This document shows, in pieces, positions 19,449-40,573 of a stretch of 64,000 nt of DNA (the first letter of the stretch is position 1; every line of letters begins with the position of its first letter). The stretch lies in the NCBI RefSeq assembly GCF_017303155.1, contig NZ_JAEKJR010000002.1, positions 1,736,001 to 1,800,000 on the forward strand. Direction: 5' to 3'. The DNA comes from Microbulbifer salipaludis (GTDB lineage Bacteria > Pseudomonadota > Gammaproteobacteria > Pseudomonadales > Cellvibrionaceae). The position numbers and the translations under genes are program-made. Below the pieces are notes generated by a model, which did not search any database, was not told the DNA's origin, and worked only from the letters and a program-made list of their open reading frames with translations.

Positions 19449-20074
19449 TGACTGGTATAATGACAAGCGTGATGACAGTAGGCGCCGCGCTGAAACAGGC
19501 CTCACCGGCTCCCCAGAACCCGCCGGCCCCCAGCCCCATGTCGCCGGAAATGCAAAGCCTGCTGGCGCAACTGAAAGATATTCAGGAGCCCGCGCCGATC
19601 GGCTGGTGGCCGCTGGCACCGGGCTGGTGGATGCTTGCGGGGCTCATCGTCGCACTGCTGTTCGCCGCAGGCTGGCTGCTGCTGCGCCTGCGCAAAAAGC
19701 GCCGCCGCAACCTGTACCGTGCGGAGGGCGAGCGCCTGCTGCGCGCACTGGATCTCGACGCACCCAGGGTGGTGGAGCAGATCAATATCCTGCTCAAGCG
19801 AGTCGCGGTTGTCACCTTCGGGCGCGACACTTGTGCGCCCCTGACCGGGCAACGCTGGATCACCTTTCTCGAATCCGCGGTCGATGAGGCCATGCCAGAG
19901 GCCGCGCGCCGCGCGCTGCTGGAAAGCCTGTACAGCGACGCCAACGCAGCTCAGGCCGACCTGCAAGCACTGCGCGACTTTGCCATTGACTGGACGCGCA
20001 AACACCAGCATCCCCAGTTAGACACTGCGAAAGCCACAGCACCCGCACAGCAAGCGGAGGCCGAACATGTTTGA
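19445..20074 (+). CDS. DUF4381 membrane protein
   Basis: About 209 residues with one membrane span (GWWMLAGLIVALLFAAGWLLL) preceded by the DUF4381 signature of a short acidic/Pro-rich N-terminus and PIGWWPLAPGW, followed by a basic cytoplasmic region RLRKKRRR and a helical domain. The start is taken as ATG 19445 inside the ATGA overlap with the DUF58 stop; the ATG at 19448 is an equal option. It overlaps the next gene by 8 bp. DUF4381 proteins are typical middle members of MoxR-VWA operons; function unknown. Confidence 0.85.
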   Translation: MMTGIMTSVMTVGAALKQASPAPQNPPAPSPMSPEMQSLLAQLKDIQEPAPIGWWPLAPGWWMLAGLIVALLFAAGWLLLRLRKKRRRNLYRAEGERLLRALDLDAPRVVEQINILLKRVAVVTFGRDTCAPLTGQRWITFLESAVDEAMPEAARRALLESLYSDANAAQADLQALRDFAIDWTRKHQHPQLDTAKATAPAQQAEAEHV

Positions 20075-22990: not shown

Positions 22991-24699
22991 CCCCAGTGGA
23001 AACATACTCCTTTCCCACTCACAGAAAGCCGTTTGTAAGCGCGACCATCGCACTGGTCACGAAAGCCCTATGCGCCCTACTCCTCCTCGCTCTATCCCTG
23101 GGCGCAAGTGCGCAGGAACTGACCGCGTCTGTCGATCGCAACGAACTCGCCATCAACGAAACCTTTACCCTCACCCTGCGCTACAGCGGTGGGCAACGGG
23201 GCGGCCAGCCGGATTTTGACCTGCTGGAACAGGACTTCGAAGTTCTTTCACGGCAGCAGTCCAACCAGTATCGAGTGATAAACGGTCAGGCAGAAAGCTT
23301 CGTTGAGTGGACGCTCATCCTCGCCCCTCTCAAGGAAGGCAAGCTGTTTGTGCCCTCACTGCATTTGCACGGCCAGGTGTCCGACGCCATCCCCATCACC
23401 GTAAACCAGGCCGGCCAGTCCCCCAGCGGCAACAGCCGCAAGGCCTTCCTGGAAGTGGAACTCGACAAAGACAAAGTCCACGTGCAGGAACAGCTACTGG
23501 TAAAAGTACGCCTCTACACCACCGTCGGCCTCCACGACATCGCCACCGACCAGCTGCAGGTCCGCGGTGCACATGTGGAAAAAGTCGATGAGCAACGCTT
23601 CGAGCGCAGAATCGATGGCGTGGGCCACGCCGTTTACGAGCTCACCTACGCCGTGTTCCCGGAAAGCTCCGGCGAACTGCAAATCCCCGCCCTCAACTAC
23701 GTCGCCGTCACCGGGCGCAGAGACCCCTTCTCCCTGTTCAACCGCAACGCACAGCGCATCCGCCTGCGCTCCGAAGCAAAAACCATACAGGTAGAACCCA
23801 AGCCCGATAGCTACAGCGGCAGCCACTGGCTCCCCGCCGCCAGCCTCGGGCTGGTACAAAGCTGGTCCAAGGATCCGGAAGAATTCAAGGTAGGGGAACC
23901 AATCACCCGCATCATCACCCTGCGCGCCGAAGGCCTGAGGGCAGCTCAGCTACCACCACTGCCAGCGCTCAATATTGAAGGCCTGAAAACCTACCCCGAC
24001 CAAGCCCAGCAGGAAGATCAGCCAAGGATGAATGGCATTACCGGCAGCCGGATAGAAACAACCGCAATTGTCGCCACCAAGCCTGGCAGCTATCAGCTGC
24101 CTCCGGTGACGATTACCTGGTGGGATACGAAGAATGGGCGGCAGCGTGCCACGCAGTTGCCGGCGTTTCGGTTTAATGTTTCAGGTGCGCCAATAGTGAA
24201 TGCGGCAGATCCGGGGAAAGCAGCACCCGCATCGAGTGGTAGTCCGTCAGCGGTTCCGGTCGAACCGGGGTTTTGGCAGAAAATTGCGATTGCGGCGATC
24301 GCATCGCATTTGCTATGGATTTTCTATTTCTTCTACCTAAAGAAAGGCAAGGCCGCCGCTGATATCCGCAGCGACAGTGAAGCCAGAGGCGCAGCCGAAG
24401 ACTCCGGGGCACTAATGGACAAAATCAAGAACGGCAATCCGGTGTATATCCAACAAGCACTCCTCCAATGGGTGAACTCGCAGTGGCCCCACACACGAGG
24501 AATGAATCTCGCAGATGCAAGCACCCACCTCAAGATTCCAGAGCTGAATCAATTGACGCAACTGCTTAATGATGCTGCCTATAAAGTTCCACCGAAGCCC
24601 CTGAATCGCTCGCAAGCGCAGACACTGGCCAGCAGAATAACTCGCGGTGAAAAAAGCAACGATTCAATCCCAGAAGTGCTTCCCCAACTGTTTAGTTAA
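22984..24699 (+). CDS. BatD-like oxygen-tolerance protein
   Basis: A 571-residue secreted/membrane protein. A signal peptide (ALCALLLLALSLGASAQ) leads to repeated beta-rich domains typical of BatD (TASVDRNELAINETFTLTL at its start), then a membrane span (IAIAAIASHLLWIFYFFYL) near residue 445 and a short cytoplasmic tail. The start is ATG 22984, overlapping the previous stop. It is the last gene of the MoxR-Bat operon; no clear terminator follows within 100 bp. Function in this organism is unproven. Confidence 0.88.
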   Translation: MVTPVETYSFPTHRKPFVSATIALVTKALCALLLLALSLGASAQELTASVDRNELAINETFTLTLRYSGGQRGGQPDFDLLEQDFEVLSRQQSNQYRVINGQAESFVEWTLILAPLKEGKLFVPSLHLHGQVSDAIPITVNQAGQSPSGNSRKAFLEVELDKDKVHVQEQLLVKVRLYTTVGLHDIATDQLQVRGAHVEKVDEQRFERRIDGVGHAVYELTYAVFPESSGELQIPALNYVAVTGRRDPFSLFNRNAQRIRLRSEAKTIQVEPKPDSYSGSHWLPAASLGLVQSWSKDPEEFKVGEPITRIITLRAEGLRAAQLPPLPALNIEGLKTYPDQAQQEDQPRMNGITGSRIETTAIVATKPGSYQLPPVTITWWDTKNGRQRATQLPAFRFNVSGAPIVNAADPGKAAPASSGSPSAVPVEPGFWQKIAIAAIASHLLWIFYFFYLKKGKAAADIRSDSEARGAAEDSGALMDKIKNGNPVYIQQALLQWVNSQWPHTRGMNLADASTHLKIPELNQLTQLLNDAAYKVPPKPLNRSQAQTLASRITRGEKSNDSIPEVLPQLFS

Positions 24700-25470: not shown

Positions 25471-26271
25471 CTACACAGCTACCAGACCTAGCTTTTCCTT
25501 AAACTCTCTAATTTTAGTACAGCCCTCTAAGAGAGCCACCTCCTCCTGTAAAGCTTCATCCTTAACGTACTCACGGCCCCTATTCTTTAGAGAGTTACGA
25601 TTTGGCAAAGAAGAAATTGAGGCAAGCCTAACGCTTTTTTCTCCAAACCCTAACCTGGAGAACAAATTGTCATGTACGAACTGCTCCTTGTTATCGGACT
25701 CAACAAACGACTCCAAATCGAACAGCACAAAACGAGAGGCAGCAGAAGCCTTAATTTTGATCGCTTGACGCAGAGACCGTTGATATCTAATCTTAAAAAC
25801 TTCCAAATCAGATAGGTAGCCCATGGACCGCCAAGATCTCCAGACTTTAGCCACCGGTCTCACACAGTACACATAGTGAGGAAGAAGGGTTGAAAAGACG
25901 CTTTCAAACTCTTCGAAGTAACGCTCATATCCCGGTGTTTTTATTCCATGAAACTTTAGCGACTTGTTCGTCCCTATACAATCCTTTTTGTTCGCACAGG
26001 CAAAGAAAGTATGGGCAAAAGCAGCCTTTGATAGATTCCAAGAGCCATCGAGCCTGCGCCCTTTGCGTTCAGAATAGTGGTCATAAACATCGTCAACATT
26101 TTTGAGAAAAGCAAAAAAACTCTCGATAGTTTTTGCATGCATCTCTTCTTGGACCGCTATTTCCGGGTGCTCATTCAGCAAATCGGTCACCATTCTCGTA
26201 CCTGATCGCGCCGCACCGCAAACAATTATCGGATTAATTTCTTTAGACTCTTCAAGACCATTTAAAAACAT
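25471..26271 (-). CDS. Sulfotransferase-family protein
   Basis: About 266 residues. The N-terminal motif PIIVCGAARSGTRMVTDLL is the 5'-phosphosulfate-binding loop of PAPS-dependent sulfotransferases; a later conserved-looking stretch (VCRPVAKVWRSWRSMGYL in approximate form) could be the 3'-phosphate region. Start: ATG 26271 has GGTGA at a good distance; a GTG nine bases upstream lacks one. It is the last gene of the minus-strand polysaccharide cluster and AT-rich like its neighbours. A role in sulfating the polymer is inferred from location only. Confidence 0.75.
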   Translation of the reverse strand: MFLNGLEESKEINPIIVCGAARSGTRMVTDLLNEHPEIAVQEEMHAKTIESFFAFLKNVDDVYDHYSERKGRRLDGSWNLSKAAFAHTFFACANKKDCIGTNKSLKFHGIKTPGYERYFEEFESVFSTLLPHYVYCVRPVAKVWRSWRSMGYLSDLEVFKIRYQRSLRQAIKIKASAASRFVLFDLESFVESDNKEQFVHDNLFSRLGFGEKSVRLASISSLPNRNSLKNRGREYVKDEALQEEVALLEGCTKIREFKEKLGLVAV

Positions 26272-26375
26272 ATTGATCACCAGTTAAATCAAATTAAATT
26301 AAATAATTTTGGCCAGCAAATTAAATCGGCCCAAGCGAAAATCAACCAAAAATAAATTTGAAACTCCGCCATCCA

Positions 26376-28088
26376 TCAGAGCAAAGAGATCTCCCACTTC
26401 AAAAAACCAGAGCTATTCGGGCAGCGAGCTTGAATCACTGACGAGGGAGAGATTTCGTTATATCCAAAACTAACCCACCCCAAAAGCGGCTTTTCACGAC
26501 CACTAAAAACATTCAGCTCACAGTCTTCCGATTTAAGCTTTACTATTGCGTACCCTGGAACCTCTACAGTGTCAGCCGAAACAACATCAACGACTAATTT
26601 CGGATTAACATGCAAATTACTTACAAGTGAATAATCATTGAAAAACTTCCTAAACATGTCAATAATTGACAACTTTTCGTGAAAATCATCATAAATCTCT
26701 AAGAGATGGAATGGCTTCAACTCAAATACTCGCTTGTGTTCAAACTGCCCAGGCCTAGTCAATTTTCCGGAAACTCTAACGCTAGAGTCGGAAAAATTTA
26801 CACTTATAAGTTTACTTCCAGGAATGTCAACATCTTGCGGTCTTGAAGGGAGCCCGTCGAGCGAAAGAGTGTTATGAGCCGAAGCAGAAATTACATACCT
26901 CCGGAACTCATCTTTATTGTATGAATACTTCCCAGAGTCTACAAAAACCAACTCACCACGGTGAAACAATTCAAAAGAAAGCTCATCCGCGTGATTGTGA
27001 GCCTCATCAGAAAACGAAATTCCCGTGATGAAAAGCTGTGACGAGTCTTCAATAAGAGTATCGGGCAATGTCCGTATTGAAAAGTAACCTGATTTAGAAA
27101 AGTCTCCAACTTGGCACTTCACACCATTTAAAACCATAGGTTCTGAATAAAAATTGAGATCAGCGGAGTAAGACCCTGAGCTATCACCTATTCTTGCAAC
27201 CATCGAATTCGGGTAAACTAAATGAGGAGAGACCCTGGAAGCTCTATCAATCAACTCCAATACCTCACGACCATAAAGGCCCTGGATATTAAGTTGCCTA
27301 ATTGTTTTCAATGTAAAAAAATGGTAAGCTGGAGAATTTTCTTTGTGCACCCCCTCCCCAGTAAATTGACGCTCAAGTAAGCTGAACATCTTTTTACTAT
27401 TGTATTCACTTTCATTACTACACACTTCGGAATTTACTTCCGCGAGACAGAGAAGCCTCAGACCCACCAATTGAAAGTACGCGTGATTTCCATGCGCCAA
27501 AAATGATTCATCTAGGAGCTTTTCGATATGCTGCCTCATCAACACTCGAATCTTTTCCGCATCGGCAGGTAAAATTAGAAAGGGATAATTTGCCAGCTCC
27601 TGCCATAACCAAGCTAACTTCATAGCCCTAATACCAGTCGCCATATCATACCACTGCATGTGGTCGATATTACCATTTCCCTTATAATAGTTGTGCCAAT
27701 CAAGAATAATTGAAAAAGCCTCTTTTAAATATTTCTCATCTTGAGTTCTACGGTACTGCCTTAGCACCGAGTCAATCATTCTCCATGCTTGCAACTGGAA
27801 AACCCAATTCCTGTCATCATAAGGATCTGCAGACCAATCAAAAGGCAAGTCAAAATGGACAGGGTCGACATCTTTTCGAGGCCGAAATCCCAGCTTTTTA
27901 AACTCTTGATATGTAGAAGAGTAAACCAAGTTAATATTATTTAAAGATATTTTCTCTTGAGCAGCCCATAGGCCAGTAGAAGGCAACATGAGAAGGAGCA
28001 AAAAAAAACCTGAAACTTGAGACAATAATTTTAGCAAACCTACAACTCTGACTTTACAGTTAGCGATCTGTGACATTGTATATCTCAT
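26376..28088 (-). CDS. Exported heparinase II/III-family polysaccharide lyase-like protein
   Basis: A 570-residue protein with an N-terminal signal (LLSQVSGFFLLLLMLPSTGLWAA). Central motifs typical of heparinase II/III and alginate-lyase-like proteins are present: LDWHNYYKGNGNIDHMQWYDM, HGNHAYFQL (Asn-His catalytic region), NSPAYHFF and EAHNHADELSFELFHRGE plus YSYNKDEFRRYVISASAHNT. These enzymes cleave uronic-acid polymers by beta-elimination. It overlaps the next upstream gene by 29 bp; an ATG four codons further in (28076) is possible. Likely periplasmic. The substrate cannot be told, but genes in polysaccharide loci often encode lyases for their own polymer. Confidence 0.85.
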   Translation of the reverse strand: MRYTMSQIANCKVRVVGLLKLLSQVSGFFLLLLMLPSTGLWAAQEKISLNNINLVYSSTYQEFKKLGFRPRKDVDPVHFDLPFDWSADPYDDRNWVFQLQAWRMIDSVLRQYRRTQDEKYLKEAFSIILDWHNYYKGNGNIDHMQWYDMATGIRAMKLAWLWQELANYPFLILPADAEKIRVLMRQHIEKLLDESFLAHGNHAYFQLVGLRLLCLAEVNSEVCSNESEYNSKKMFSLLERQFTGEGVHKENSPAYHFFTLKTIRQLNIQGLYGREVLELIDRASRVSPHLVYPNSMVARIGDSSGSYSADLNFYSEPMVLNGVKCQVGDFSKSGYFSIRTLPDTLIEDSSQLFITGISFSDEAHNHADELSFELFHRGELVFVDSGKYSYNKDEFRRYVISASAHNTLSLDGLPSRPQDVDIPGSKLISVNFSDSSVRVSGKLTRPGQFEHKRVFELKPFHLLEIYDDFHEKLSIIDMFRKFFNDYSLVSNLHVNPKLVVDVVSADTVEVPGYAIVKLKSEDCELNVFSGREKPLLGWVSFGYNEISPSSVIQARCPNSSGFLKWEISLL

Positions 28089-29274
28089 CCGCCATTTGAT
28101 CCATGATTCTCGTCCGCCGATAATAATCGATAAACTTTTTTCTTTTACTCAAACCGTACTCAATCTTATCCAATGCCGAAATTGCGCCATAACTATCACC
28201 GGGCTTAAACACAGCAGCATTAACAATCTCCTCGGCTATAAACTCTGCGGCATACCCGCTAACTCCAGCAACAATAGGCTTTTCTGTCGCAGCGTACTCA
28301 AAAATTTTGGAAGGAAGAACTTTGTGCATCGAGGGATTATCATCAAGATGAAGAAATAACACATCTGCCGACCTGTACATCTCGATTAACAATTGCCTAG
28401 CAACGGGCTTATAGATAACAACATTCTTCAAACCTAACCTTGAAACCTCCTCCTCTAGCATAATTTTTCTTGCCCCATCCCCAACAATTACCACCTCAAA
28501 GTTTGAGGGTAATAAACTGGCAAACTCAGGAATTATATTATGCAAACACTGCGCCTGCCCTATATTTCCAGCATATAGAATCCTTCGAGCGCACCCTGGG
28601 CCCTTTATAGTTTGCGAAAATACATTATCCGCAGCTTCCCGAATAAACAGCTCATCAATCCCGTTTGTGTAGCATGAATAACTTAGAGTTGGATACTTAT
28701 AATAAAAGTAACTCTTGAACCCTTTTGAAACCAAATTGACTTGACTGCTGTTTCTTAGTGCCCATCGCTCAAGATATGAAAAAAAACATTTTGCCAACCA
28801 TCTCATACGCCTAGGAAAAACATACCCAATATTGTCTACAAAAATATCACGAATATCTAGATAATAAATTGCATTAGCACGCCGAGACACAAATGAACCG
28901 AGGACTGCCGTCATAAGCCGTGAAGATGTAGCTATAACCAAGCAATATCTATTACTCCTAGCAAGACGAATTGATTTTAACGCATATACCGCATATGAAA
29001 TTGCCTGCGTAACCATACCGCCAGAGTGCTGAGGAATATCAACCCTGTCTATGAGAAGCCTACCATCGCATAACGACTCAACTAACTCTGCTTTTTTTGC
29101 CATTGATAAATATCTATTTGGCTGCGCAGCTATAACATGTAATGTCACCTTCGAGCCGAAACGCCTCATTAAAGCGTCCACCAAAGCCTTTGAGCGGAAT
29201 GACCCGGCACTCAAGTCTGGAGGAAAATAGTAACTTAGTAAAAGTATTCTTCGCTCTCCGTCGACCGCAGCCAT
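28060..29274 (-). CDS. GT4-type glycosyltransferase
   Basis: A 404-residue GT-B fold protein. It begins ILLLSYYFPPDLSAGSFR, typical of GT4 enzymes (donor-side P-rich loop), and has LYAGNIGQAQ, VVIVGDGARK and the acidic C-terminal motif VLPSKIFEYAATEKPIVA, the E-x7-E equivalent that binds the nucleotide sugar. Cytoplasmic and probably membrane-associated. It is translated just after the next GT4 gene (2-bp gap) and overlaps the heparinase gene. Sugar specificity unknown. Confidence 0.85.
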   Translation of the reverse strand: MAAVDGERRILLLSYYFPPDLSAGSFRSKALVDALMRRFGSKVTLHVIAAQPNRYLSMAKKAELVESLCDGRLLIDRVDIPQHSGGMVTQAISYAVYALKSIRLARSNRYCLVIATSSRLMTAVLGSFVSRRANAIYYLDIRDIFVDNIGYVFPRRMRWLAKCFFSYLERWALRNSSQVNLVSKGFKSYFYYKYPTLSYSCYTNGIDELFIREAADNVFSQTIKGPGCARRILYAGNIGQAQCLHNIIPEFASLLPSNFEVVIVGDGARKIMLEEEVSRLGLKNVVIYKPVARQLLIEMYRSADVLFLHLDDNPSMHKVLPSKIFEYAATEKPIVAGVSGYAAEFIAEEIVNAAVFKPGDSYGAISALDKIEYGLSKRKKFIDYYRRTRIMDQMADEIYNVTDR

Positions 29275-29276
29275 AA

Positions 29277-30509
29277 TTAAAGTATTTCCGCAGCAACAAC
29301 TTTATTGTAAAGCTTTACAAGCTCACCCTCTTGCACTTCCCAGTTCAACTTTAAGGCAGCTTTATAAGCGTTCTCACTAAACTTTTTCCGTAATGATTCA
29401 TCATCAACCAGCTTGATTATGGCATCCCGCAATTCCTCTTTACCTTCTGGAGATGCAAGAAGCCCAAGTTTGAACTCCTGTACAACTTTAGCGATCTCAG
29501 GAAGATGGCTAGCCACGACGGGTAGCCCGGCTATAACATACTCGAATAGCTTATTGGAGTCTGTTGTGAAGTGGTTCAGACAGGTATTTTCTATTGGTTG
29601 CACACCAATGTCTGCAGATGCTGTAAACTTTGGGAGTTCATTCAGTGTTATTGTCGGAATGAAAAAAACCCTTTCGTTTAATTTACAATCCTCGACGACA
29701 CTTAACAAATGACTGGTTAAGCGCCCCCCGCCAATTAACACAAAATAGGCATTCGGAATTTCAGAGGCTAATCGCACAAATTTCTCTAATCCTCTACCTT
29801 GCTGTAAGCCTCCTTGGTACAAAACAACTGGCCATGACTTAGTCAGCTTAAGGCAATCACGAATCGTACTATTTCTTTCGACAGACGTGTATCTCGGGCG
29901 ATTTTGCAAAACTAACGGACGATCAATTCCATACGCTCTCGCGAAAAACTTCGACCTGGCATCGGTTGTTGTAATACAACCTGCGGCTCTAGGCATAATG
30001 AATTTTTCAACACAGCCGACAATTTTGCGAAAGTTTACATAGCCTTCACGATCAGTGCTAATCTCGTGTGCGTCATATACTAGGGGTATCCGGCAAATTA
30101 TCGAAGCAACCCATGCCGTCGGCAGCACGTTCACGTCATGGGCATGGATTACACCAGGTCTTGCTTTAACTATGCTTAACAACAGCCCAAAATGTGTCCA
30201 GAGCCTCGCTAGAATCCTAAGTCCCTGCCGCAAAGGCGTCACTGGAATACTATGGTTTTTGGAGCTAGCACTGCCCTGGCGCTGAAAACTTTTCCTGTTT
30301 CTCAATCGCCATAGCGGACTTCGAGATATTCGTTTAACTCTTATGCCGCCAGCCAACTCCTCAACATGTTCGGTGACGCCAGGCGTGTGGAGCGCGTGTA
30401 TAGTTAGAACATAGCCAGCTTTTTGCAGTGTCTGCGCTTCTTTTAAGACTCTAGCATCGTTAGTAAATTCATTCCAAACAAGCATGGATACCGCTGTCAA
30501 CTTTACCAC
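29277..30509 (-). CDS. GT4-type glycosyltransferase
   Basis: A 410-residue GT-B glycosyltransferase starting MVKLTAVSMLVWNEFTNDAR (GTG 30509 with GAGG upstream). Visible motifs include VIHAHDVNVLPTAW, VLYQGGLQQGRGLEKFV, YFVLIGGGRLT and NKLFEYVIAGLPVVAS, the nucleotide-sugar-binding C-terminal region. It resembles wall/capsule GT4 enzymes. It is packed between the 404-residue GT4 and the membrane fusion gene. Donor and acceptor unknown. Confidence 0.86.
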   Translation of the reverse strand: MVKLTAVSMLVWNEFTNDARVLKEAQTLQKAGYVLTIHALHTPGVTEHVEELAGGIRVKRISRSPLWRLRNRKSFQRQGSASSKNHSIPVTPLRQGLRILARLWTHFGLLLSIVKARPGVIHAHDVNVLPTAWVASIICRIPLVYDAHEISTDREGYVNFRKIVGCVEKFIMPRAAGCITTTDARSKFFARAYGIDRPLVLQNRPRYTSVERNSTIRDCLKLTKSWPVVLYQGGLQQGRGLEKFVRLASEIPNAYFVLIGGGRLTSHLLSVVEDCKLNERVFFIPTITLNELPKFTASADIGVQPIENTCLNHFTTDSNKLFEYVIAGLPVVASHLPEIAKVVQEFKLGLLASPEGKEELRDAIIKLVDDESLRKKFSENAYKAALKLNWEVQEGELVKLYNKVVAAEIL

Positions 30510-30523
30510 CTCTATTGCGTCGT

Positions 30524-32299
30524 TTAATTTACAGCTTCAAGATCCGTACTACTATTCTGTAGCATAGAATTAATCTGTGGAAGTAAAACCAAAGCTTCTT
30601 TAAAACTCTGCCTTTGGCAGAGGGCTAAAAACTCATATATGAATGCAGAAAGTGTAACACTGGCAATCCCAACATCTTTTAAATCATCCCTGCGGGATCT
30701 AGCCAGCTCGACAGCTTCTGGCAGCTTATCCAAGGCCCAATCATCTAGAGGCCAACCTGCCCCCACTGGCTCCAAGCACCATCGGCCCCAATTTCCACAC
30801 ACATATTCTTTCTCAAAATTTACAAATAGTGAGTCAGCCTTTAAATCAGGATTCACTATTGCCAGTGGTAAGGAGCTTAATTTTTGGAAGATAATTTCTC
30901 GACAATGAAAGAAACTAGCAAGCTGAGCTTGAACTTCTAAACCAGCACCAATAACCGCTACACTTAGACGCTTAAATAGAACGTCATTTATCTGACCCCA
31001 CATCATTTGTCGAGACCTTGTGTAGCTTGAAATCAATGCTGAACTTGGTGGAACGGACATCATATTTGCCACAACTTTCCAAGCGCATAACCTCGCCTCC
31101 TTACGAGAAACTTCACGGTGCCCAGTAAAATCAAATAGGTGCCATTTAAAATCACCGAGCTTTCCGACGTTCAACAGATTAGGGACCGGCAAGCCCTCTT
31201 GCAAAGTTAGTATCAACGCTTCGTGATCGGACAAGCGTGAACGTTTCTCACCATATATCTTCAAATATAGCGATGCGCGCTCCTCCTCGGCGACAGAAGC
31301 TGAATGAAACACATCAAATGCAATAACATCAGGCACCCCACTTTGTCGAAAATTAAACTCCATGGGCTCACCGCCTAAGGAATATCTCTCTCCACCACTC
31401 TTACCAATGATCACTCTGAGGGTATCTTTATTAATGTGACTCCAAAAGTCTGCAGCCTGACTTTTTGAACTCGGCAGCAAGACATGACCATGAAAAAAAA
31501 GTACATTCAATTGGTTTTTTCTGCTATTCAGCCAGGTCATATCATGGAAGGCACCTACAGATTTACCGGTCAACTGCCGCGCCAGAATCAATGTTAAAAT
31601 AGCGGACAATGGTTGAATTTCCCGCCCAGTAAAAAAGAAAATCAATATTGACAGAAATACCAGCAAAAATCCGACAGATGCGCCGACCTTTACGAAACTA
31701 GAAAGATACGTATTGGAAAATTTTTCGTCTCTCCTACAAAGATAGTACCCGATAGAGCACAGAAAAAATGCAAAACCAAGTATAATGAAGAAAACTAACG
31801 ATGAAAGATAAGCAATACCCGCAGATATCAAGAGAATAAGAATGCCCCCACCCAGACTCCGTGCATACCTGGAGTACCCATCCTTTGCAACATCTTCCTG
31901 ATTTTCAAATAATACTACTTTGTTATTAGCCGCCAGAAGCTTTTTGGTAGATATATCTGAAAACACGCCTATAAGCTTTTCAAGACCCAAATGAACAACA
32001 TAGAAAACTGCAGAGAGCCCTCCGAGCATCAGTATTAAAGTCTCATGATCGAATACAGAAAACGCTGAAGGAAAGTACCGTGGAATACGTTGAGTGCCCA
32101 CTAATATGACAACTTTGAGCGGCAGTAAAAAAGCAAGAATTGCAAAAACTTGTGAAAACACATTCGCCAGAACAATCGAAATCGTAGCAAGCCAAGCCTT
32201 CTTTAGAAATTTGCTTCCAACTGAATAATACCATTTGAAGTATGAGACCAAGCTATTAGACAACACAGCTCCCATTGCGCCTATCAAAATTAATTTCAA
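30524..32299 (-). CDS. Membrane protein: ABC-exporter-like transmembrane half fused to a degenerate kinase-like domain
   Basis: A 591-residue protein I do not recognise as a named family. Residues ~35-255 contain about six hydrophobic spans in the pattern of a type I ABC exporter (for example LANVFSQVFAILAFLLPLKV and LILLISAGIAYLSSLVFFII), but no nucleotide-binding cassette follows. Instead the C-terminal ~330 residues look like an aminoglycoside-phosphotransferase/choline-kinase fold: LYLKIYG (Lys strand), DHEALILTL, LPVPNLL, then a catalytic-loop-like VNPDLKADSLFVN and GNWGRWCLEP. Against the usual HxDxxxxN...D, His, Asn and the metal Asp appear replaced (N, S, N), so it may be a pseudokinase. 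This is my reading of short motifs, not a database match. Confidence 0.6.
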   Translation of the reverse strand: MKLILIGAMGAVLSNSLVSYFKWYYSVGSKFLKKAWLATISIVLANVFSQVFAILAFLLPLKVVILVGTQRIPRYFPSAFSVFDHETLILMLGGLSAVFYVVHLGLEKLIGVFSDISTKKLLAANNKVVLFENQEDVAKDGYSRYARSLGGGILILLISAGIAYLSSLVFFIILGFAFFLCSIGYYLCRRDEKFSNTYLSSFVKVGASVGFLLVFLSILIFFFTGREIQPLSAILTLILARQLTGKSVGAFHDMTWLNSRKNQLNVLFFHGHVLLPSSKSQAADFWSHINKDTLRVIIGKSGGERYSLGGEPMEFNFRQSGVPDVIAFDVFHSASVAEEERASLYLKIYGEKRSRLSDHEALILTLQEGLPVPNLLNVGKLGDFKWHLFDFTGHREVSRKEARLCAWKVVANMMSVPPSSALISSYTRSRQMMWGQINDVLFKRLSVAVIGAGLEVQAQLASFFHCREIIFQKLSSLPLAIVNPDLKADSLFVNFEKEYVCGNWGRWCLEPVGAGWPLDDWALDKLPEAVELARSRRDDLKDVGIASVTLSAFIYEFLALCQRQSFKEALVLLPQINSMLQNSSTDLEAVN

Positions 32300-32317
32300 T
32301 AAAAAACTCCAAAAGGG

Positions 32318-34921
32318 TCACTCATACATAGACTGAGTGACTAACGCTATCATTTTAAGAGTCGTTTCTTTATTTGGTGGAGAGTGGCCTAATTCAGGAT
32401 CATCATAATAGACAATGTTTAATCCAGTTTTACTAACAACACTACCGCTTCCAAAATTAAATTCTGTAATATCGCCTTTGTAGCGATTTATCATAGGCTT
32501 AAGATGCCTCAGCAAATGTGATTCATCATGGACATTCTGAAAAATACAAACAGGACTCTCTCTAGCACCGCCATCTAAATTCACCGAAAGTCTTGTAGAG
32601 TACTTTTTCACAACTTGATTTCGATCCAAGCCAGGATAGCAGGACTCCAACATGCCAAGAAAATGAGAGGGAGTATATCGCTCTAGATACAGTTGTGGGT
32701 TGATAGCGATCACAGGGCACTTCGGGAGCTCATTGGCAAGCTTCAAGCCAGCGAACCCGCCAGCGGAAGAGCCAAAAATTGTAATATCCTCTGGTTTATA
32801 GTAGTCACGTTCAATAAGTAACTGTACAAATTTTATGAGCGCATCTATCCCATATGCTTTTTCGGAATTCTGGAACCAACCAATGGAAATATTGTTATCA
32901 TCTCTAATACTAGGGTCCGAAAATGATATGATATCAAAATCCTTAAAGTCGTTAGCCCAACTATGACGCTGAAAGTCATATATTCCCTTGGAGCGCTTGG
33001 TCGCACCAGGAAGCATCAAGATTACTTTCCGGCACTCAGAAGAAAAAGAAGAGTAAAACGTCAACGGCACATTATCAATGTAGACCCTATTTGTTCTCTC
33101 GCCAAACGCCCGACTAAAGGCACTTGCATCCAAATAAACTTGATGCTGGATATTTGGCAAAATGCTTTTACTAGACCTCTCATTTAAAATGACTGTTTTC
33201 TTCAAGAGTTCAGGCTCAATATGATGAGCCACAAATGCCAATGCATCTTCGCGATTGTCTTCAGTAAGACTGAGTGCCGTCACTAGCTTCTCGGATTTAC
33301 CAAAGCCTTTAAACCCAAGAGCTAGTGCTGGGGAAAAACAGTAATCATTTTCTGATATAAAACCTTGTAGGTTCTTATCGTCACCATAATGTATTATCGG
33401 AGAAACACTACCGTTTAGGCAATCAATGTAAATTTCGTTTCCAGAACTATCCAAACAATATAGCGAGCGCTCAAGCAGACTAGATATATGGAATCGCTTG
33501 TCTAAATGAAACCACTGGGTAAACCCTCTCTCTCGTACAAAATCCAAATCATCCACTACGACAACCCAACATCCAGGCTTAAAATAAATGTCTCGAGAAT
33601 GCTTGATCGCCGGGTAGTCAAGGTTAGCGTTAAAACGAAATATATTTTCTGACACTTGCTCTACGGAGTTCAACGCTGAACCATAAGGCTTGATTTTTAG
33701 AATATCAAATCCTTCAATTTCCACAGAATTATGCGCTCTAGCGCTGAGAAAATAGTTTCTATACCTATCGCTGCGATATCCATATTTACCACTATCACAT
33801 ATGATTTTCTCACCACTTTCGAACCACTCGAAACTCATACAATCCCGGTGCTTATGGGACTTCGAGTGATAAGCAGCTGTCAAAAAAAGCATGGAAGAAT
33901 TATTAGGGTCTTTATGCCATGCTGATCGCACGATTCCGTATCCACTTTCGTGGAAATCTGAAATGCAGAAAGACTCTTGAAAGTTCTCACCAGAAAAATC
34001 GACAGAATCCTGAACTGTCAAAATTGAGTCTCCCACACATACTGGACGCTTCAGAGGGTCGACCAACCATTTTTTCTTGGTTTGCGCCTGATTAATCCTA
34101 CCTTCAATTAAATCACTTCTAGCATACCAGCCAGACTTTATAACCGCTAAGAATGTGGATAAGACATAGAAATGATAGTGAGGGGAGTGCTCTAAATGTA
34201 TTCCACTTGCATCAAACTGGGAGCTAACAAGCTCTTCCATTCTCGCCAGGGCATAACCTACATTGTCATCAGTCTCATCCGCGCCTAGAACAGTTAGAAG
34301 TGCAAGAAGACCATGGATCTGAAAAATCCCGTGATTATTAAGAGAAAAGGTTTCCTCAGAAGAAAGATTAGCAATGTGCTTTTCAGCCAGGCACCTCAAA
34401 ATATCTCGATCAGCCTCAGATAAAGGAATTTTAAAGAAGCCAATTCTATTTATCATAAAGGCAAGTATTAGCGCCCTGAACCCTACCGACATGTCATACC
34501 ATGCATAGCTAGACGGCATTCTTGAAGTGGTTACATTATCGGGATCATTTTTGTATTGACCATACCAGTCACGAGCGATGGCAAGAAAATAATCGACAAT
34601 TTCATTCTTATCTTCGTAAGAGTCAAAAAAATTCATAACAGGATGGAACATCGTCCAGCCCTGAAGCTGCATACGCCAATTTCTATCTGAAGAATCTTTA
34701 ACAGCTTCCCAGTCTACTGGTAGAGTAAGTGCAAGCTCTTCACAGTCTTTCCTTGGCTTAAAAATTCTCTCTCTGACAATGCGATTTTTATCTGACTCAT
34801 AGAGTCCGGCAGGAAATATTCGATGAAGAAACGTCTCCACCGGAATAACTGAATGTTGCTCAAAGTTCACGATTGTATATTCCAAAACTTCCCCGAATTC
34901 TGCAGTGAACAAGTCTATCAA
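32318..34921 (-). CDS. Heparinase II/III-like protein fused to a C-terminal serine-hydrolase domain
   Basis: An 867-residue two-domain protein without a clear signal peptide. Residues ~1-600 resemble its 570-residue neighbour: NWRMQLQGWTMF, SYAWYDMSVGFRAL, NNHGIFQIHGL, EHSPHYHFYVL, SKSHKHRDCMSFEWFESGE and FLSARAHNSVEIE. Residues ~650-867 form an alpha/beta-hydrolase-like domain: VILMLPGATKR, nucleophile elbow DITIFGSSAGGFAGLKLA, a candidate Asp in QNVHDESH and a candidate His in DPELGHSPP. The second domain recalls XcbB/CpsF-type capsule proteins and could be an O-acyl esterase/transferase. Fusion is in one uninterrupted frame. Function inferred only. Confidence 0.78.
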   Translation of the reverse strand: MIDLFTAEFGEVLEYTIVNFEQHSVIPVETFLHRIFPAGLYESDKNRIVRERIFKPRKDCEELALTLPVDWEAVKDSSDRNWRMQLQGWTMFHPVMNFFDSYEDKNEIVDYFLAIARDWYGQYKNDPDNVTTSRMPSSYAWYDMSVGFRALILAFMINRIGFFKIPLSEADRDILRCLAEKHIANLSSEETFSLNNHGIFQIHGLLALLTVLGADETDDNVGYALARMEELVSSQFDASGIHLEHSPHYHFYVLSTFLAVIKSGWYARSDLIEGRINQAQTKKKWLVDPLKRPVCVGDSILTVQDSVDFSGENFQESFCISDFHESGYGIVRSAWHKDPNNSSMLFLTAAYHSKSHKHRDCMSFEWFESGEKIICDSGKYGYRSDRYRNYFLSARAHNSVEIEGFDILKIKPYGSALNSVEQVSENIFRFNANLDYPAIKHSRDIYFKPGCWVVVVDDLDFVRERGFTQWFHLDKRFHISSLLERSLYCLDSSGNEIYIDCLNGSVSPIIHYGDDKNLQGFISENDYCFSPALALGFKGFGKSEKLVTALSLTEDNREDALAFVAHHIEPELLKKTVILNERSSKSILPNIQHQVYLDASAFSRAFGERTNRVYIDNVPLTFYSSFSSECRKVILMLPGATKRSKGIYDFQRHSWANDFKDFDIISFSDPSIRDDNNISIGWFQNSEKAYGIDALIKFVQLLIERDYYKPEDITIFGSSAGGFAGLKLANELPKCPVIAINPQLYLERYTPSHFLGMLESCYPGLDRNQVVKKYSTRLSVNLDGGARESPVCIFQNVHDESHLLRHLKPMINRYKGDITEFNFGSGSVVSKTGLNIVYYDDPELGHSPPNKETTLKMIALVTQSMYE

Positions 34922-34926
34922 TCTAT

Positions 34927-37050
34927 CTACAAGCTTGAATAAAGCTCATTCACAATACTGGCTCCATTTTTCCAGTCTCGATTTTCACACACCCAACGCC
35001 TTGCGTTCTGACCGAGTAAAACTCTAAGATCAGGCTTTTGGATCAAAGACTCTAACTTGCTGCTAAAGTCAATTATATTGCCCTTTTCAAATACTAATCC
35101 GGTTTTTTCATTCTCAACAATCTCTGTCAAAGCTGCACAACTAGATACGAGTACAGCTTTTTCACTCGCCATCGCTTCAAATGGCTTCAGTGGTGACACT
35201 TTTTCACACACTTCATATGGCTTACGAGGAAATGGTGCAATATCTACTAATGAATAATATGCTTGTACTTCTTCATGAGGGACTCGACCTGTTATTGTTA
35301 CGAAGCTCTCAAGCCGCAGTTCTGAGACTAACCTTTTGAGCTGAGGGAGTACCGCACCATCTCCAACTATCAAAGCGTGAAAATTTACCACCTCCCTATC
35401 AACCAACAGTCTAAGAGCTTTGAATAGATCATCTAGCCCTTCATAATTGACAATAGATCCAATATAGCCGATTACGACATCCTTTCGAGATATACCTAAA
35501 CGCTTACCCAACTCTTCATCCTTATTATGTGGGGTAAATCTATCGGTATGCACACAGTTAGGGACAACAGTTATTTTCTCCTCCGGCACCCCTCTACTGA
35601 CCATCAGCTCTTTAAGAGCATTAGTTATAGTTATCACTTTATCGGCTTGCTTGCATGCTTCCGCTTCCATTTTTGCCGTGTACTTGAACTGTTCGGTGTC
35701 ACTCCAATCACTCTGCCTTGACAGTCGAGTAATTTCCCACAAACCCCTCACCTCGTATACGGACTTGATGCCAAGATTGCGGGCGGCAACGATCGCCGCA
35801 TAAGCGTTCGGAAAATTTGAAGCAGCGTGAATAATACTCACTCTTTTCTTAGTAGCGAGCTTCTCTATTTCCGCCGCATACGAATCAACATAATCAGAAA
35901 AAGTAATAATACTTTTACGAGTACTTTGATCACACCTAAAATAGCATACCCCATTAATTACATCTCTCAATGGAACAACAGTTGGCAAAGGCTTGCTAAT
36001 ATATTTTTTATGATCCGTCGGGAACCCAGGACGTGAAACACCTGAAACCTCAAAATCACCGATACTATTTATTCCCACCAACAAGCCTTGGGTTCTTGTT
36101 GCATATCCTCCAGAATTATACGGCAGGGAATTATGTAACAAGTATAAAACACTGCACCCAGGGGAATAAGCTGGTGCTAAGCGCCGTGCCGGCAGTGGGA
36201 AGCCGCATTCAAGATGATTTATCTCATCGGAAATACGACGAGTTCCAAGAGATTCACGGCCTACACTTGCATCAACTTCAATTGAAAAATCTCTTGACTC
36301 ATACATCTTCCCAAGATAGGTCAGCTGCGCCTTGACCGAGTTGGCCAAATGGCGATCTTCCTTTCTATTTCTCCAAAGGGCCCATCCAACGTAGCAAGTG
36401 ACAGATGGCAGCTCATCCTTCATAGACCAGTAACATTTTTCTAACTCTTCGATGTTACGTGTTTTTACCATCCACTTATCGATATAGTTGATCTTTGATT
36501 CAGCCGTATCGAATCTTCCGATGTGTGGTTGTAGCTTGTATATATATGATGCAAACACTCTCCTTTTCCGGGAGGCATAGGCAAACAAGATCTTTGCGCG
36601 TACTATATGAAACATATGAACGGGATAGGCGACCCGACGAAAAACAGGCGTCAGGGCCGACACCATTCTAAATTTTTTGCTACTTGTAATTCTTTTTATT
36701 TCAGCCAGCGCCTTTCTTTTCATCCTCTCTTCATAGCGAACTTTGTACTTCAAAGAGTTTATTCTTGATTCAAATTCTTTGTCTTTTGTCCAGATTGCTT
36801 CGATAATACGTGGATCGCAATTATCTAAACGCTCAAATACCGGTTTACCTTCCTCATGATGCGTATAAATGTATCCATGGCTTGTGAGCACACACAGAAA
36901 ATCGTAAAACGATGCTTGCTCGCTGGGACTTGCCAAAATACGTTGCTTAACATCTTTCCTGAGCTCATTACTGAGGTAGTCATTTAGCTCTTCAATGCTA
37001 TAGTAAACTGCCGCAAGCGATGGTTTTTTTATGGGGTCACTTATTTGCAT
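34927..37050 (-). CDS. Large GT4-type glycosyltransferase with extra N-terminal domain
   Basis: A 707-residue protein. Residues ~310-707 are a GT4 GT-B enzyme: LLHNSLPYNSGGYATRTQGL, IIHAASNFPNAYAAIVAAR, YEVRGLWEITR, VIGYIGSIVNYEGLDDL, LIVGDGAVLPQL and the acidic C-terminal site KVSPLKPFEAMASEKAV. The first ~300 residues are helical, basic and of unknown role, with a possible coiled coil (about 90-125). It is the first gene of the glycosyltransferase block, five bp before the heparinase-hydrolase gene, and separated from wecC by 186 bp that hold a structured repeat. Confidence 0.82.
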   Translation of the reverse strand: MQISDPIKKPSLAAVYYSIEELNDYLSNELRKDVKQRILASPSEQASFYDFLCVLTSHGYIYTHHEEGKPVFERLDNCDPRIIEAIWTKDKEFESRINSLKYKVRYEERMKRKALAEIKRITSSKKFRMVSALTPVFRRVAYPVHMFHIVRAKILFAYASRKRRVFASYIYKLQPHIGRFDTAESKINYIDKWMVKTRNIEELEKCYWSMKDELPSVTCYVGWALWRNRKEDRHLANSVKAQLTYLGKMYESRDFSIEVDASVGRESLGTRRISDEINHLECGFPLPARRLAPAYSPGCSVLYLLHNSLPYNSGGYATRTQGLLVGINSIGDFEVSGVSRPGFPTDHKKYISKPLPTVVPLRDVINGVCYFRCDQSTRKSIITFSDYVDSYAAEIEKLATKKRVSIIHAASNFPNAYAAIVAARNLGIKSVYEVRGLWEITRLSRQSDWSDTEQFKYTAKMEAEACKQADKVITITNALKELMVSRGVPEEKITVVPNCVHTDRFTPHNKDEELGKRLGISRKDVVIGYIGSIVNYEGLDDLFKALRLLVDREVVNFHALIVGDGAVLPQLKRLVSELRLESFVTITGRVPHEEVQAYYSLVDIAPFPRKPYEVCEKVSPLKPFEAMASEKAVLVSSCAALTEIVENEKTGLVFEKGNIIDFSSKLESLIQKPDLRVLLGQNARRWVCENRDWKNGASIVNELYSSL

Positions 37051-37170
37051 ATTTTTCTTAATAAACCTTTACTTGGTATTTGAACGATTTCGGGACATCC
37101 CATCAACGCACTTCGCAAATAAATTGCATTGACTCTAAATTAGAACCCTACTTGAGCTGGACTTTAGTCC

Positions 37171-37237
37171 GATCTGGTTAAATATTTCTCCTGCCCACAA
37201 AGGCAGGAGAAGTTGTATCTTACGCTCTAACCAGATC
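37171..37237. repeat. Nested inverted repeat after wecC (possible attenuating terminator)
   Basis: An outer 10-bp pair GATCTGGTTA (37171-37180) / TAACCAGATC (37228-37237) encloses a perfect 8-bp hairpin CTCCTGCC / GGCAGGAG (37188-37209). It begins at the wecC stop and precedes the long GT4 gene on the minus strand. There is no strong T-run, so a full terminator is uncertain; an RNA structure that separates wecBC expression from the rest of the island is possible. Confidence 0.6.
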
Positions 37238-38517
37238 TATAAAACACCACGAGTATCAACTACCCGGACAAACTGCTTAATTCTACTTGCTTGCTCTTTA
37301 AACTCTGCATGGTCTACAAGCAGTAGAATAATATCCGCATTTTCTAGAGCGCTATCGATATCAACTAACTCCGCTTTTTGCATTAGCGACCGCGGAAGTT
37401 TAGATATATTTGGCTCCACCACCAATAATTTACTCGGATGCCGATCAGCCAAACTCACTGCTATGTTCAGCGCTGGGCTTTCACGCAAGTCATCTATATC
37501 AGGCTTGAAAGCAAGGCCAAAACAGGCGACAGTAATATCTTTCACATCTTTTATAGGGTTTAGCTGACTAATTCGAGCTATCTCAAGCCCAACTTTTTCC
37601 AACACCCAATCGGGTTTGGAGTCATTAACTTCCCTGGCTGCTCGTGTAAGTTTGGCCAGTTCAGGCGTTCGAGAAACAATGAACCAAGGATCTACAGCTA
37701 TGCAGTGCCCCCCCACGCCACACCCCGGCTGCAAAACATTTACTCTTGGATGTCTATTCGCCAAACTGATTAACTCCCAGACGTCAATCTCTAGCCGATC
37801 AGCAATCATTGAAAGTTCATTTGCGAAAGCAATGTTGACATCCCTAAAAGCATTTTCAGTCAACTTTGCCATTTCGGCAGTACGAACATCAGTAAGTAGG
37901 CATTCACCTTCAACCAAAAGTTCGTACAGCTCTTTTGCTTTTTCGGCACATTTAGGGGTCATGCCTCCAATCACTCGGTCATTTTCTACAAGCTCTCTCA
38001 TCACATGCCCAGGCAGTACCCGCTCCGGGCAGTGAGAAATATATATATCAAACTCGCCGCTTGACCTATTGGATACAGGAATCCGTAAGTCCGGCCGGAA
38101 TTCCTGCAAGCCTTTCGCCATATGCTCTGTCGCACCAACAGGAGATGTAGATTCAAGAATAACTAGATCGCCTTTTTTTAATACCGGGGCGATTGCGCTT
38201 GCAGCGGCCTCGATATAGGCAAGATCAGGCTGCTTATTACCTTTGAAAGGTGTCGGCACCGCAATTATAAATGCATCTGCACTCTCAGGCGTAAGTGAAG
38301 CTTTTAAGTAACCCTCTGTAACCGTTGAATGCACAACGATATCTAGCTCAGGCTCAACGATATGAATCTCGCCTTGATTAATTGTGTTCACCGCATGTTC
38401 ATTAACATCAACGCCACAAACCTTCAGTTTTCGTGACGCAAATGCAGCAGCTGTAGGCAAGCCGATATAGCCGAGCCCCATAACAGTTAAAGACTTGAAA
38501 TTTTCACTTTTTTTCAT
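37237..38517 (-). CDS. wecC: UDP-N-acetyl-D-mannosamine dehydrogenase
   Basis: A 426-residue NAD-dependent dehydrogenase that oxidises UDP-ManNAc to UDP-ManNAcA, a building block of acidic polysaccharides. The Rossmann start VMGLGYIGLPTAAAFASR, the STSPVGATE loop, and the active-site signature PGCGVGGHCIAVDPWFIV (catalytic Cys in the first GCG or HC region) are all typical of WecC rather than UDP-glucose dehydrogenase. It follows wecB by 15 bp in the same operon as nadK-wecB. Confidence 0.93.
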   Translation of the reverse strand: MKKSENFKSLTVMGLGYIGLPTAAAFASRKLKVCGVDVNEHAVNTINQGEIHIVEPELDIVVHSTVTEGYLKASLTPESADAFIIAVPTPFKGNKQPDLAYIEAAASAIAPVLKKGDLVILESTSPVGATEHMAKGLQEFRPDLRIPVSNRSSGEFDIYISHCPERVLPGHVMRELVENDRVIGGMTPKCAEKAKELYELLVEGECLLTDVRTAEMAKLTENAFRDVNIAFANELSMIADRLEIDVWELISLANRHPRVNVLQPGCGVGGHCIAVDPWFIVSRTPELAKLTRAAREVNDSKPDWVLEKVGLEIARISQLNPIKDVKDITVACFGLAFKPDIDDLRESPALNIAVSLADRHPSKLLVVEPNISKLPRSLMQKAELVDIDSALENADIILLLVDHAEFKEQASRIKQFVRVVDTRGVL

Positions 38518-38532
38518 GTTTACCCCCGATTG

Positions 38533-39693
38533 TTAACCAACAACATCTAAACTTTCTTTCTTATGAGAGAATGCTCTCAAAACATCTTGAACGATTCGCT
38601 CACAGGCCTTCCCATCACCATAAGGATTGTGCGCCTCAGACATTTTTTGGTAATACTCTTTGTCATCCAGCAACCGCTGCACTTCGACGCACATGACGGC
38701 CTTATTTGTTCCGACCAATTTCACAGTGCCTGCATCTACTGCTTCCGGCCGCTCTGTCGTATCGCGCATTACTAGTACTGGCTTACCCAAAGACGGAGCT
38801 TCCTCTTGAATCCCACCCGAATCAGAAAGAATCAGATAAGAGCGACTCATTAAGTATACAAAGGGAAGATATTCAAGAGGCTCTATAAGCAGAACATTTT
38901 CTTGACCTGAAAGAATTCGATTTACCGGCTCACGTACATTTGGATTTAAATGCACAGGGTAAACAAATTGAACTTCTGGATTATTCTCTGCCATTTCTAT
39001 AATGGCTTGACACATATTTTCAAAGCCGGAACCAAAATTTTCTCTACGATGCCCGGTAATTAGTACGATTTTTCGATTTTCTCGTAAAAAAGGGAGTACA
39101 TCTAAAATCGCCGTTTCGGTTGCAGAATTATTTTTAATTATATTAAGCACTTCAAAAAGGGCATCAATAACTGTATTTCCAGTAACAGTAACGGTCGATT
39201 CGAAATGCCCTTCGGACAAAAGATTGTGCTGTGACCTCGCCGTAGGCGCGAAATGATAAGTTGCCACTGCCCCGGTTATCTTCCGATTCATTTCTTCCGG
39301 CCACGGAGAGTATATATCCCCGGTTCTAAGACCGGCCTCTACGTGTCCGACCGGAATTTTTTCGTAATAACTTGCTAAAGACGCAGCGAGTGTGGTTGTC
39401 GTATCACCGTGCACCAGTACTACATCTGGCTGCCAATCTTTCAGTATGGGGCGGAGCCCCATCAATATGCGGGCTGTAATGTCCGTTAGATCCTGCCCAG
39501 GCTGCATGATATCAAGATCCCATTGGGGCTTGATCTCAAAAAGCTCTAAGACCTGGTCTAGCATTGAGCGGTGCTGTGCAGTTACGCATACGCGACAATC
39601 GACTTCACTCCGCTTTTTAAACGCTTTTACAAGCGGGGCCATTTTAATTGCTTCAGGGCGAGTCCCAAAAACGATTAACACTTTCTGCTTCAT
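38533..39693 (-). CDS. wecB: UDP-N-acetylglucosamine 2-epimerase (non-hydrolysing)
   Basis: A 386-residue cytosolic enzyme interconverting UDP-GlcNAc and UDP-ManNAc. Motifs: [18 protein letters not shown] at the N-terminus, [10 protein letters not shown], and [28 protein letters not shown] near the C-terminus. It supplies WecC. It starts 4 bp after the nadK stop with no strong ribosome site, suggesting translational coupling to nadK. Confidence 0.95.
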
Positions 39694-39697
39694 GATT

Positions 39698-40573
39698 TCA
39701 ACTACTTATTTGCCAGTTTAATTTCGAACGACAGGTTTCATAAAAATTATGATCAATCGGGTGAATCAAAGTGAGCCGATGCGGCTTTTTGTGTATTCGA
39801 ATCACGTCTCCAGGTTCAGTAATTACCTGATCGTGTCCATCGCAGGTCACATAGGAGTGTGTAGAATTGTGCTCCCCAATGATGACCTTAAACTCACTAC
39901 TACCCTCGACCACGATCGGCCTGCTACTCAGCGCATGGGGATTTAAAGGAACGACCACAATGGCATCAAGCTTTGGGTGCATAATTGGCCCCCCACCAGA
40001 AAGTGCATAAGCCGTTGAGCCTGTGGGTGTCGACACAATCAATCCATCGGATCGTTGGGTATAAACAAATTGCCCATCGATAAACAGATCAAACTCAATC
40101 ATGCGGATATATTCACCTGGGTGAATGACTACATCATTAAGCGAGGAGCCTTTGCCAATTGGCTTACCATCTCGCGTGACGGACATATCGAGCAAGAAGC
40201 GGCTTTCGGCCATGTATTTGCCGGAAAGCACCTCGCCTACTTTTTCTTCGATTTCATCGGGCGTGATATCGGTGAGGAATCCAAGCCGGCCCCGGTTGAT
40301 ACCCAGGAGCGGAACACTGAATTTGGCGAGGGCGCGGGCGGCGGCGAGCAGGCTACCGTCGCCGCCGACAACGATTACGAGGTCGCAAAGTTCCCCGAGC
40401 TTGTCTTTACTGGATACACGCGCATTGTGACCCGCCACATCGTTGGCTGTATTTTTTTCGAGCACAACGGAGTAACCCTCTCGCTCCAGGAAGGCCATCA
40501 GGCGCTTGAGCGAGAGGACTGCGCTGTCACTTTCAGTGCGGCCGATCAGGCCGATGTTTTGGAATTCCGACAC
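39698..40573 (-). CDS. nadK: NAD kinase
   Basis: A 291-residue ATP-dependent NAD+ kinase producing NADP+. The catalytic GGDG is in [13 protein letters not shown], with [10 protein letters not shown] and [16 protein letters not shown] as the NAD- and ATP-site motifs. The start is GTG 40573 with GGGGGAG just upstream. It is a housekeeping gene that forms the head of the wecB-wecC operon here, an uncommon pairing for nadK, and marks the boundary of the AT-rich island. Confidence 0.95.

Follow-up and report, generated by a model that had tools for sequence, protein, structure and literature searches.

The window, a 64,000-nucleotide stretch of the 3.98 Mb genome of Microbulbifer salipaludis, contains a run of nine genes on the reverse strand. 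Among them is TMK, whose 591-aa product is predicted from its ORF, a structure model and its homologues to join an ABC-exporter-like transmembrane domain (TMD) to a pseudokinase of the APH/choline-kinase kind. The run begins with a WecB-like UDP-GlcNAc 2-epimerase (38533..39693; Epimerase_2, 9.6e-122), a UDP-sugar dehydrogenase resembling UGD and WecC (37237..38517; Pfam) and a large GT4-type glycosyltransferase, GT3 (34927..37050; Pfam). It continues with a heparinase II/III-like protein that has an alpha/beta-hydrolase-like C-terminal part (32318..34921; Pfam, with Peptidase_S9 below cut-off), TMK itself, and two further GT4-type glycosyltransferases assigned by Pfam and context: GT2 (29277..30509), which adjoins TMK, and GT1 (28060..29274). 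It ends with a second heparinase II/III-like protein, which has an N-terminal hydrophobic segment (26376..28088; Pfam and sequence), and a sulfotransferase-family protein (25471..26280; Sulfotransfer_3, 6.4e-9). The first of the two heparinase-like proteins is the larger. Neighbouring genes of the run overlap by as much as 29 bases or lie as far as 186 bases apart; the gaps on the two sides of TMK are 18 and 14 bases.

One boundary of the locus is NAD kinase (39698..40573, reverse strand; a relative in L064 is NAD_kinase by Pfam), and the other is an operon at 20067..24699 on the forward strand, located with a BLAST anchor, which we take to be bat-like. Elsewhere in the same genome, a single Poly_export (Wza-type) match and a single Bac_transf match lie together at G000:C1:288298-290466 (L060, L061), on another contig than the TMK cluster. 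The idea of a group 2 capsule in this genome was rejected, PF05159 having no match there.

The TMK reading frame is present at 30524..32299 on the reverse strand and opens with TTG. Homologues begin to align at about residue 16-20, so translation may start some codons further on. TMK had no NCBIfam match at E<=1, its only match in a Pfam scan was a stray TMEM40 at 0.26, a sequence search of solved structures gave no useful match, and plasmid and phage searches gave no match. UniProt labels two members of the family simply "ABC transmembrane type-1 domain-containing" and one "DUF2254 domain-containing" (shortened names), and no description of a TMK-like protein was found among the open-licence PMC papers reached by the terms used.

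The membrane half (residues 18-276; 31472..32248, reverse strand) takes up the six-helix fold of an exporter TMD by structural comparison of the model, with Foldseek support that is weak. The model keeps a long ICL1-like pair of helices (85-125 and 134-165), and has short TM4 (167-190) and TM5 (192-223), so that the second intracellular loop looks lost. In known exporters this is the loop that docks on the nucleotide-binding domain (NBD). An alignment of 190 fused rows shows conserved charges at K62, E107 and R241. Lys62 in TM1 (32114..32116, reverse strand) is K in 184 rows and Arg241 in TM6 (31577..31579, reverse strand) is R in 189, and both are kept in all four of the homologues that have a TMD only. 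At E<=1 the window protein matched none of PF00664, SbmA_BacA, ABC2_membrane (PF01061), Polysacc_synt or MurJ, and the model has six spans. One of 49 TMK members matched LptF_LptG at 2.4e-5, in a comparison covering the best 25 of 31 families.

The second half (residues 282-583; 30551..31456, reverse strand) is modelled as a kinase fold with both N-lobe and C-lobe, delimited by structure comparison. Beta-3 Lys347 (31259..31261) is K in 176 of the 190 rows and alpha-C Glu360 (31220..31222) is E in every row, both on the reverse strand, and W507 and G513 are kept in 189. The catalytic positions are a different matter. The HxDxxxxN motif is degenerate in the alignment (30830..30853, reverse strand; N483-P-D485 and S490), and the DFG Asp position is N503 in the window protein (30791..30793, reverse strand). 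Across the rows, the HxD Asp is present in 107, the Asn in 35 and the DFG Asp in 13; both Asp residues occur together in two, and a single row, P0080, has all three residues. The 190 rows include near copies (L018 and P0014, for instance, are the same protein) and took in 120 listed matches out of the 264 for the Halomonas cerina query described below; L035 was left out of row set A2. Judged by this alignment, the pseudokinase has a conserved site, though not one suited to ordinary Mg-ATP phosphotransfer.

The earlier note on this DNA had described an exporter-like membrane half fused to a kinase fold with no ATPase cassette and with its catalytic residues replaced. The fusion holds in the window protein and in the rows examined, and the C-terminal half came out as a kinase fold and not as an unrelated one. 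No cassette was found by Pfam on the window chain, where PF00005 has no match and the kinase fold takes the cassette position, and none was found on homologue chains; a Walker-A-like string occurs in one of 190 rows. The replacements are as described (N-P-D, S and N in the window protein), and the HxD His is present in no row. As read from sequence and structure model, this predicted anatomy is secure.

Searched against 5.8 billion proteins, the window protein found 13 full-length matches, itself included, and a profile made from these found the same 13 again. The member from H. cerina, used as a query against the same 5.8 billion proteins, found 264, itself included. The named genera include Halomonas, Billgrantia, Chromohalobacter, Salinicola, Marinobacter, Pseudomonas, Thioalkalivibrio, Zobellella and Microbulbifer, and a member is carried by a Halomonas elongata record. 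In a sample of the family of H. cerina, 30 of 121 genomes match TMK, four of them by the membrane half only. In Microbulbifer, TMK is found in 14 of 48 genomes, and its groups there are 15-29% identical to each other.

The position of TMK in Microbulbifer was used to find out what occupies the same place in genomes that lack it. NAD kinase, found in 47 of the 48 genomes, bounds a variable locus on one side. Of the 14 genomes with TMK, 13 have it about 7-25.5 kb from NAD kinase, always on the same side; the 14th (G006) is cut by a contig end. The locus was read in 33 stretches, 13 with TMK (the window included) and 20 without. In these stretches the interval from NAD kinase to the bat-like operon (25471-39693 in the window) is a variable capsule-type polysaccharide locus, occupied by cassettes of differing sugars and exporters. 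The setting in a polysaccharide locus, which the earlier note had also proposed, is correct.

Of the 20 stretches that lack TMK, 17 carry an ABC-2 permease and ATPase pair, and the remaining three (G008, G002, G033) carry Wzx/Wzy-like proteins. The permeases are 252-283 aa (two ORFs in G044) and the ATPases 210-247 aa; two pairs were identified by Pfam (ABC2_membrane and ABC_tran) and the others by HMMs grown from one pair. The Wzx/Wzy-like label is based on TIGR04370, above cut-off in G033 and below it in G008, on Wzy_C below cut-off in G002, and on Polysacc_synt below cut-off in G033; the two proteins with 12 segments, in G008 and G002, had no match. With the same HMMs, which cover one NBD family and could let a distant NBD escape, the ABC-2 pair was found in none of the 13 TMK stretches. 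The interval is whole, unbroken from NAD kinase through the bat-like operon, in 10 of the 13 TMK stretches, and the bat-like operon is reached in 18 of the 20 others. TMK is the sole candidate translocase in the 10 whole intervals, where one other protein has at least four hydrophobic segments, an AT3-SGNH acyltransferase in G024.

Microbulbifer polysaccharide clusters carry TMK in place of a recognised exporter. With kinship ignored, Fisher's test gives p 9.8e-7 for the ABC-2 pair (0/13 with TMK, 17/20 without) and p 3.3e-8 for any exporter (0/10 and 20/20). Kinship was taken into account with a tree of two flanking proteins from 27 genomes, 10 of them with TMK. On this tree the presence of TMK needs eight changes, at least six of which are forced by supported branches. 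In independent pairs, having any exporter is opposite to having TMK in six of six (p 0.031), the trait being the exact complement of TMK in the tree rows, and the ABC-2 pair taken alone is opposite in a mean of 4.9 of six (median p 0.0625). The low identity between the TMK groups suggests that the swap at this locus probably involved different TMK lineages. This replacement of exporters goes beyond what the earlier note had proposed.

Four genomes have an ORF of 250-272 aa that matches the membrane half of TMK only (E 3e-33 to 2.7e-19), and no separate kinase gene was found beside it in the 20-kb stretches. In G221 (L148, 8136-13426) this gene lies between two Capsule_synth (KpsC/KpsS-type) genes, followed by a cytidylyltransferase gene. 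The HMMs found no ABC-2 pair in about 60 kb around it, and an unclassified 276-aa protein with five segments is about 15 kb away. In G187 and G149 the gene occurs with glycan genes and PGT-like genes (neighbours scanned with Pfam in G187); 5-8 kb from it are an ATPase and a protein of 852-862 aa with 10 segments. In G174 (L151) it occurs with a Glyphos_transf gene, with a 12-segment protein about 5 kb away. These homologues, with no kinase half nearby, suggest that the pseudokinase is an add-on to a machine whose essential part is the membrane half.

The order TMK-GT2-GT1, with two GT4-like genes directly after TMK, is found in 20 of 44 stretches, and in seven of those 20 a PGT-like gene and then a Wzy_C-like gene come next (labels for which one PGT and two Wzy_C members were scanned with Pfam). 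Glyco_trans_1_4 was matched by 26 of the 79 scanned direct neighbours of TMK on the same strand. These 79 are what remains of 90 direct neighbours once 11 on the opposite strand are taken away; 12 locus ids were also set aside as short contigs, near copies or, in two cases, loci without TMK. In five Microbulbifer genomes (L066-L070) the gene that comes straight after TMK resembles an alginate lyase by HMM, and PF05426 was matched by five of the 79. The earlier note had raised the idea that such fusions always sit beside heparinase-like genes, and this did not hold up: a heparinase- or alginate-lyase-like ORF turned up in only 15 of the 56 TMK stretches fetched, a count that excludes the window, takes in several short contigs and includes two matches to partial ORFs at an edge.

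Flippases near TMK were also looked for. Four Halomonadaceae clusters with PGT and Wzy_C (G098, G104, G105, G109) have no Wzx-like protein within 14-20 kb on either side, where Wzx-like means 380-560 aa with at least 10 segments, Wzy_C excepted, and cluster boundaries were judged by eye. Polytopic proteins outside this size rule are near TMK in G105 (601 and 602 aa, 11 segments) and G104 (588 aa, nine segments). G098 has no PF01943 match in the whole genome. Such a match is present somewhere in 17 of the 24 TMK genomes searched. Two of these genomes, G114 (H. socia) and G117 (Guyparkeria), have it less than 10 kb from TMK; in G096, G099, G100, G101, G104, G113 and G118 it is on the TMK contig at a distance of about 18 kb or more. 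In H. socia (L039), a fifth Halomonadaceae cluster, the match (E 2.4e-59) is about 5 kb from TMK; in Guyparkeria (L051) the flippase-like gene is about 7 kb away on the other strand; and in Marinobacter orientalis (L026) a MurJ/MatE-like gene is near. The idea that TMK replaces Wzx everywhere was rejected as a general rule on the basis of these three.

Several loci, such as L032, L047 and L051, are not clearly polysaccharide clusters. In Thioalkalivibrio MAG loci (L037, L042, L048, L052) TMK is beside a DUF2063-like gene (one BLAST cluster, scanned with Pfam in L048) and not beside glycosyltransferases. The TMK copies of the Thioalkalivibrio MAGs are longer than usual. Four divergent members (L152, 3654-5435; L153, 9140-10939; L154, 8874-10655; L155, 9295-11091) have a full ABC exporter nearby and Q in place of K62. 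Giant ORFs adjoin TMK in L153 and L155; they measure 2208 and 3022 aa, and the longer one shows weak Ig-like matches. The L155 exporter carries a C39-like domain, and its surroundings also include a 1063-aa Mur-ligase-like protein and a LuxR-type regulator. This setting is another use of the same fusion.

TMK shares its TMD fold with type I (type IV fold) ABC exporters such as YbtPQ, CydDC, TmrAB and MsbA, with 6-14% identity among the structural alignments listed, and differs from them in having no ATPase cassette, a pseudokinase after the TMD, and short TM4 and TM5. PglK, a flippase of lipid-linked oligosaccharides, is of this exporter kind. The KpsM/KpsT and Wzm/Wzt exporters are of the ABC-2 type, and a pair of that type occupies the Microbulbifer locus in the 17 stretches mentioned; they belong to another family and are driven by ATP through two genes, whereas TMK is encoded by a single gene and lacks an ATPase. 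Wzx proteins, which are MOP proteins of about 12 spans, differ from TMK with its six, and Wzx/Wzy-like proteins occupy the locus in the three remaining stretches. In its second half TMK shares with APH and choline kinases (PF01636, PF01633) the fold and the Lys/Glu pair, but the catalytic His, the Asn and the metal Asp are replaced and the domain is fused to a TMD.

Two known proteins come closer. MviN of mycobacteria has a lipid II flippase role, with a membrane half of the MOP/MurJ kind. As in TMK, one chain combines a pseudokinase with a membrane protein, in this case one that envelope synthesis requires, but the MviN pseudokinase is Ser/Thr-kinase-like, whereas TMK combines an ABC fold with an APH-like domain. 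PMC12599244 describes the MviN pseudokinase as regulating the cell-wall membrane protein that carries it. SbmA/BacA (SLiPT) proteins share with TMK an ABC-type TMD with no NBD on the chain; TMK differs in carrying a pseudokinase and has no SbmA_BacA match. According to PMC13316013, SbmA shows that such a TMD can be driven by protons as a secondary transporter, and SLiPTs import peptides and have a TM0 domain and a glutamate ladder, without elbow helices. TMK resembles SbmA and MviN and, by the tests made, belongs to neither.

On balance we lean towards TMK being the protein that carries its cluster's polysaccharide across the inner membrane. We infer this role from the repeated replacement of exporters in one genus, with partial support elsewhere. 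Based on sequence and structure model, the best reading is that TMK would be an ABC-fold polysaccharide translocase without an ATPase of its own, controlled by its pseudokinase. Two chains would form one alternating-access unit, as in type I ABC exporters. The cargo would be an anionic and probably lipid-linked glycan, whose phosphate or uronate groups Lys62 of TM1 and Arg241 of TM6 might contact. Energy would come from the proton motive force, as it does for SbmA and for MurJ-type flippases, or from the growing chain, and not from a fused NBD. In the least supported part of this model, the pseudokinase would be cytosolic, would not phosphorylate, and might let through only glycan that is complete or properly primed, by binding a ligand or the glycosyltransferases encoded next to it.

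Some observations count against a translocase. Flippase-like genes are near TMK in the H. socia, Guyparkeria and M. orientalis clusters, and NBD-bearing ORFs are near some relatives outside Microbulbifer. Also, whole cassettes swap at the Microbulbifer locus, so if the products of TMK cassettes need no export, the exclusivity would arise without TMK translocating anything. The same side is taken by the divergent members L152-L155, the Thioalkalivibrio MAG loci, the 12-segment protein near the TMD-only gene of L151, the weak Foldseek support and the median p of 0.0625 for the ABC-2 pair alone. An unlikely alternative is that TMK transports nothing and is a membrane scaffold and regulator that gathers glycosyltransferases through its pseudokinase, while the polymer leaves by an exporter encoded elsewhere. 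The two GT4 genes that so often follow TMK and the frequent Glyco_trans_1_4 neighbours would fit this, the M. salipaludis genome does have Wza-like, PGT and Wzy_C-type genes elsewhere, and pseudokinases can scaffold (PMC12599244). It fits poorly with finding an exporter inside the locus in all 20 loci without TMK and in none of the 10 whole TMK intervals, and with the TMD-only homologues, which persist in glycan clusters without a kinase.

It is less probable still that TMK makes up one half of an ordinary ABC exporter, with the ATPase encoded separately and acting in trans. The exporter fold and the retained ICL1-like helix pair would allow this, and candidate partners exist in the NBD-bearing ORFs within 10 kb of TMK in L016 and L022/G102 (597 and 613 aa), in the exporters near L152-L155 and in the ATPases near the TMD-only genes of G187 and G149. 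The apparent loss of the NBD-docking loop with the shortening of TM4 and TM5 argues against it, and the 13 Microbulbifer TMK stretches have no ABC-2 pair or matching NBD by HMMs of one NBD family. Least probable of all is that the C-terminal half is a working enzyme of unusual chemistry (phosphotransfer, an AMPylation-like or another transfer), used by TMK to alter lipids or sugars at the membrane: the alpha-C Glu, beta-3 Lys, W507, G513 and, in 107 rows, the HxD Asp are kept, and SelO and SidJ are enzymes with kinase folds that lack canonical residues, but the HxD His is never present, the DFG Asp and the pair of Asp residues are rare, and the TMD-only homologues have no kinase domain.

Polysaccharide export in Gram-negative bacteria is usually ascribed to three routes: Wzx/Wzy, ABC-2 transporter and synthase. 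We propose tentatively, at somewhat short of even odds, that TMK and its TMD-only relatives are a further class of polysaccharide translocase beside these, with an ATPase-free ABC-exporter fold and, in most members found, an APH-type pseudokinase as a cytosolic control domain. If true, this would be a single-gene, ATPase-free ABC-fold route that is interchangeable with two of the three known routes at one locus. It would also be another ABC transmembrane fold that works without ATP, beside SbmA, and another pseudokinase on a membrane protein that builds the envelope, beside mycobacterial MviN. TMK would then be a candidate for clusters with a reported missing flippase, such as the Wzy-type region of Cobetia, where Wzx is described in one strain only and the authors suppose that an unknown hypothetical protein is involved (PMC11766843, section 2.4). 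Altogether, TMK may be a previously unrecognised way to move polysaccharides out of the cell.
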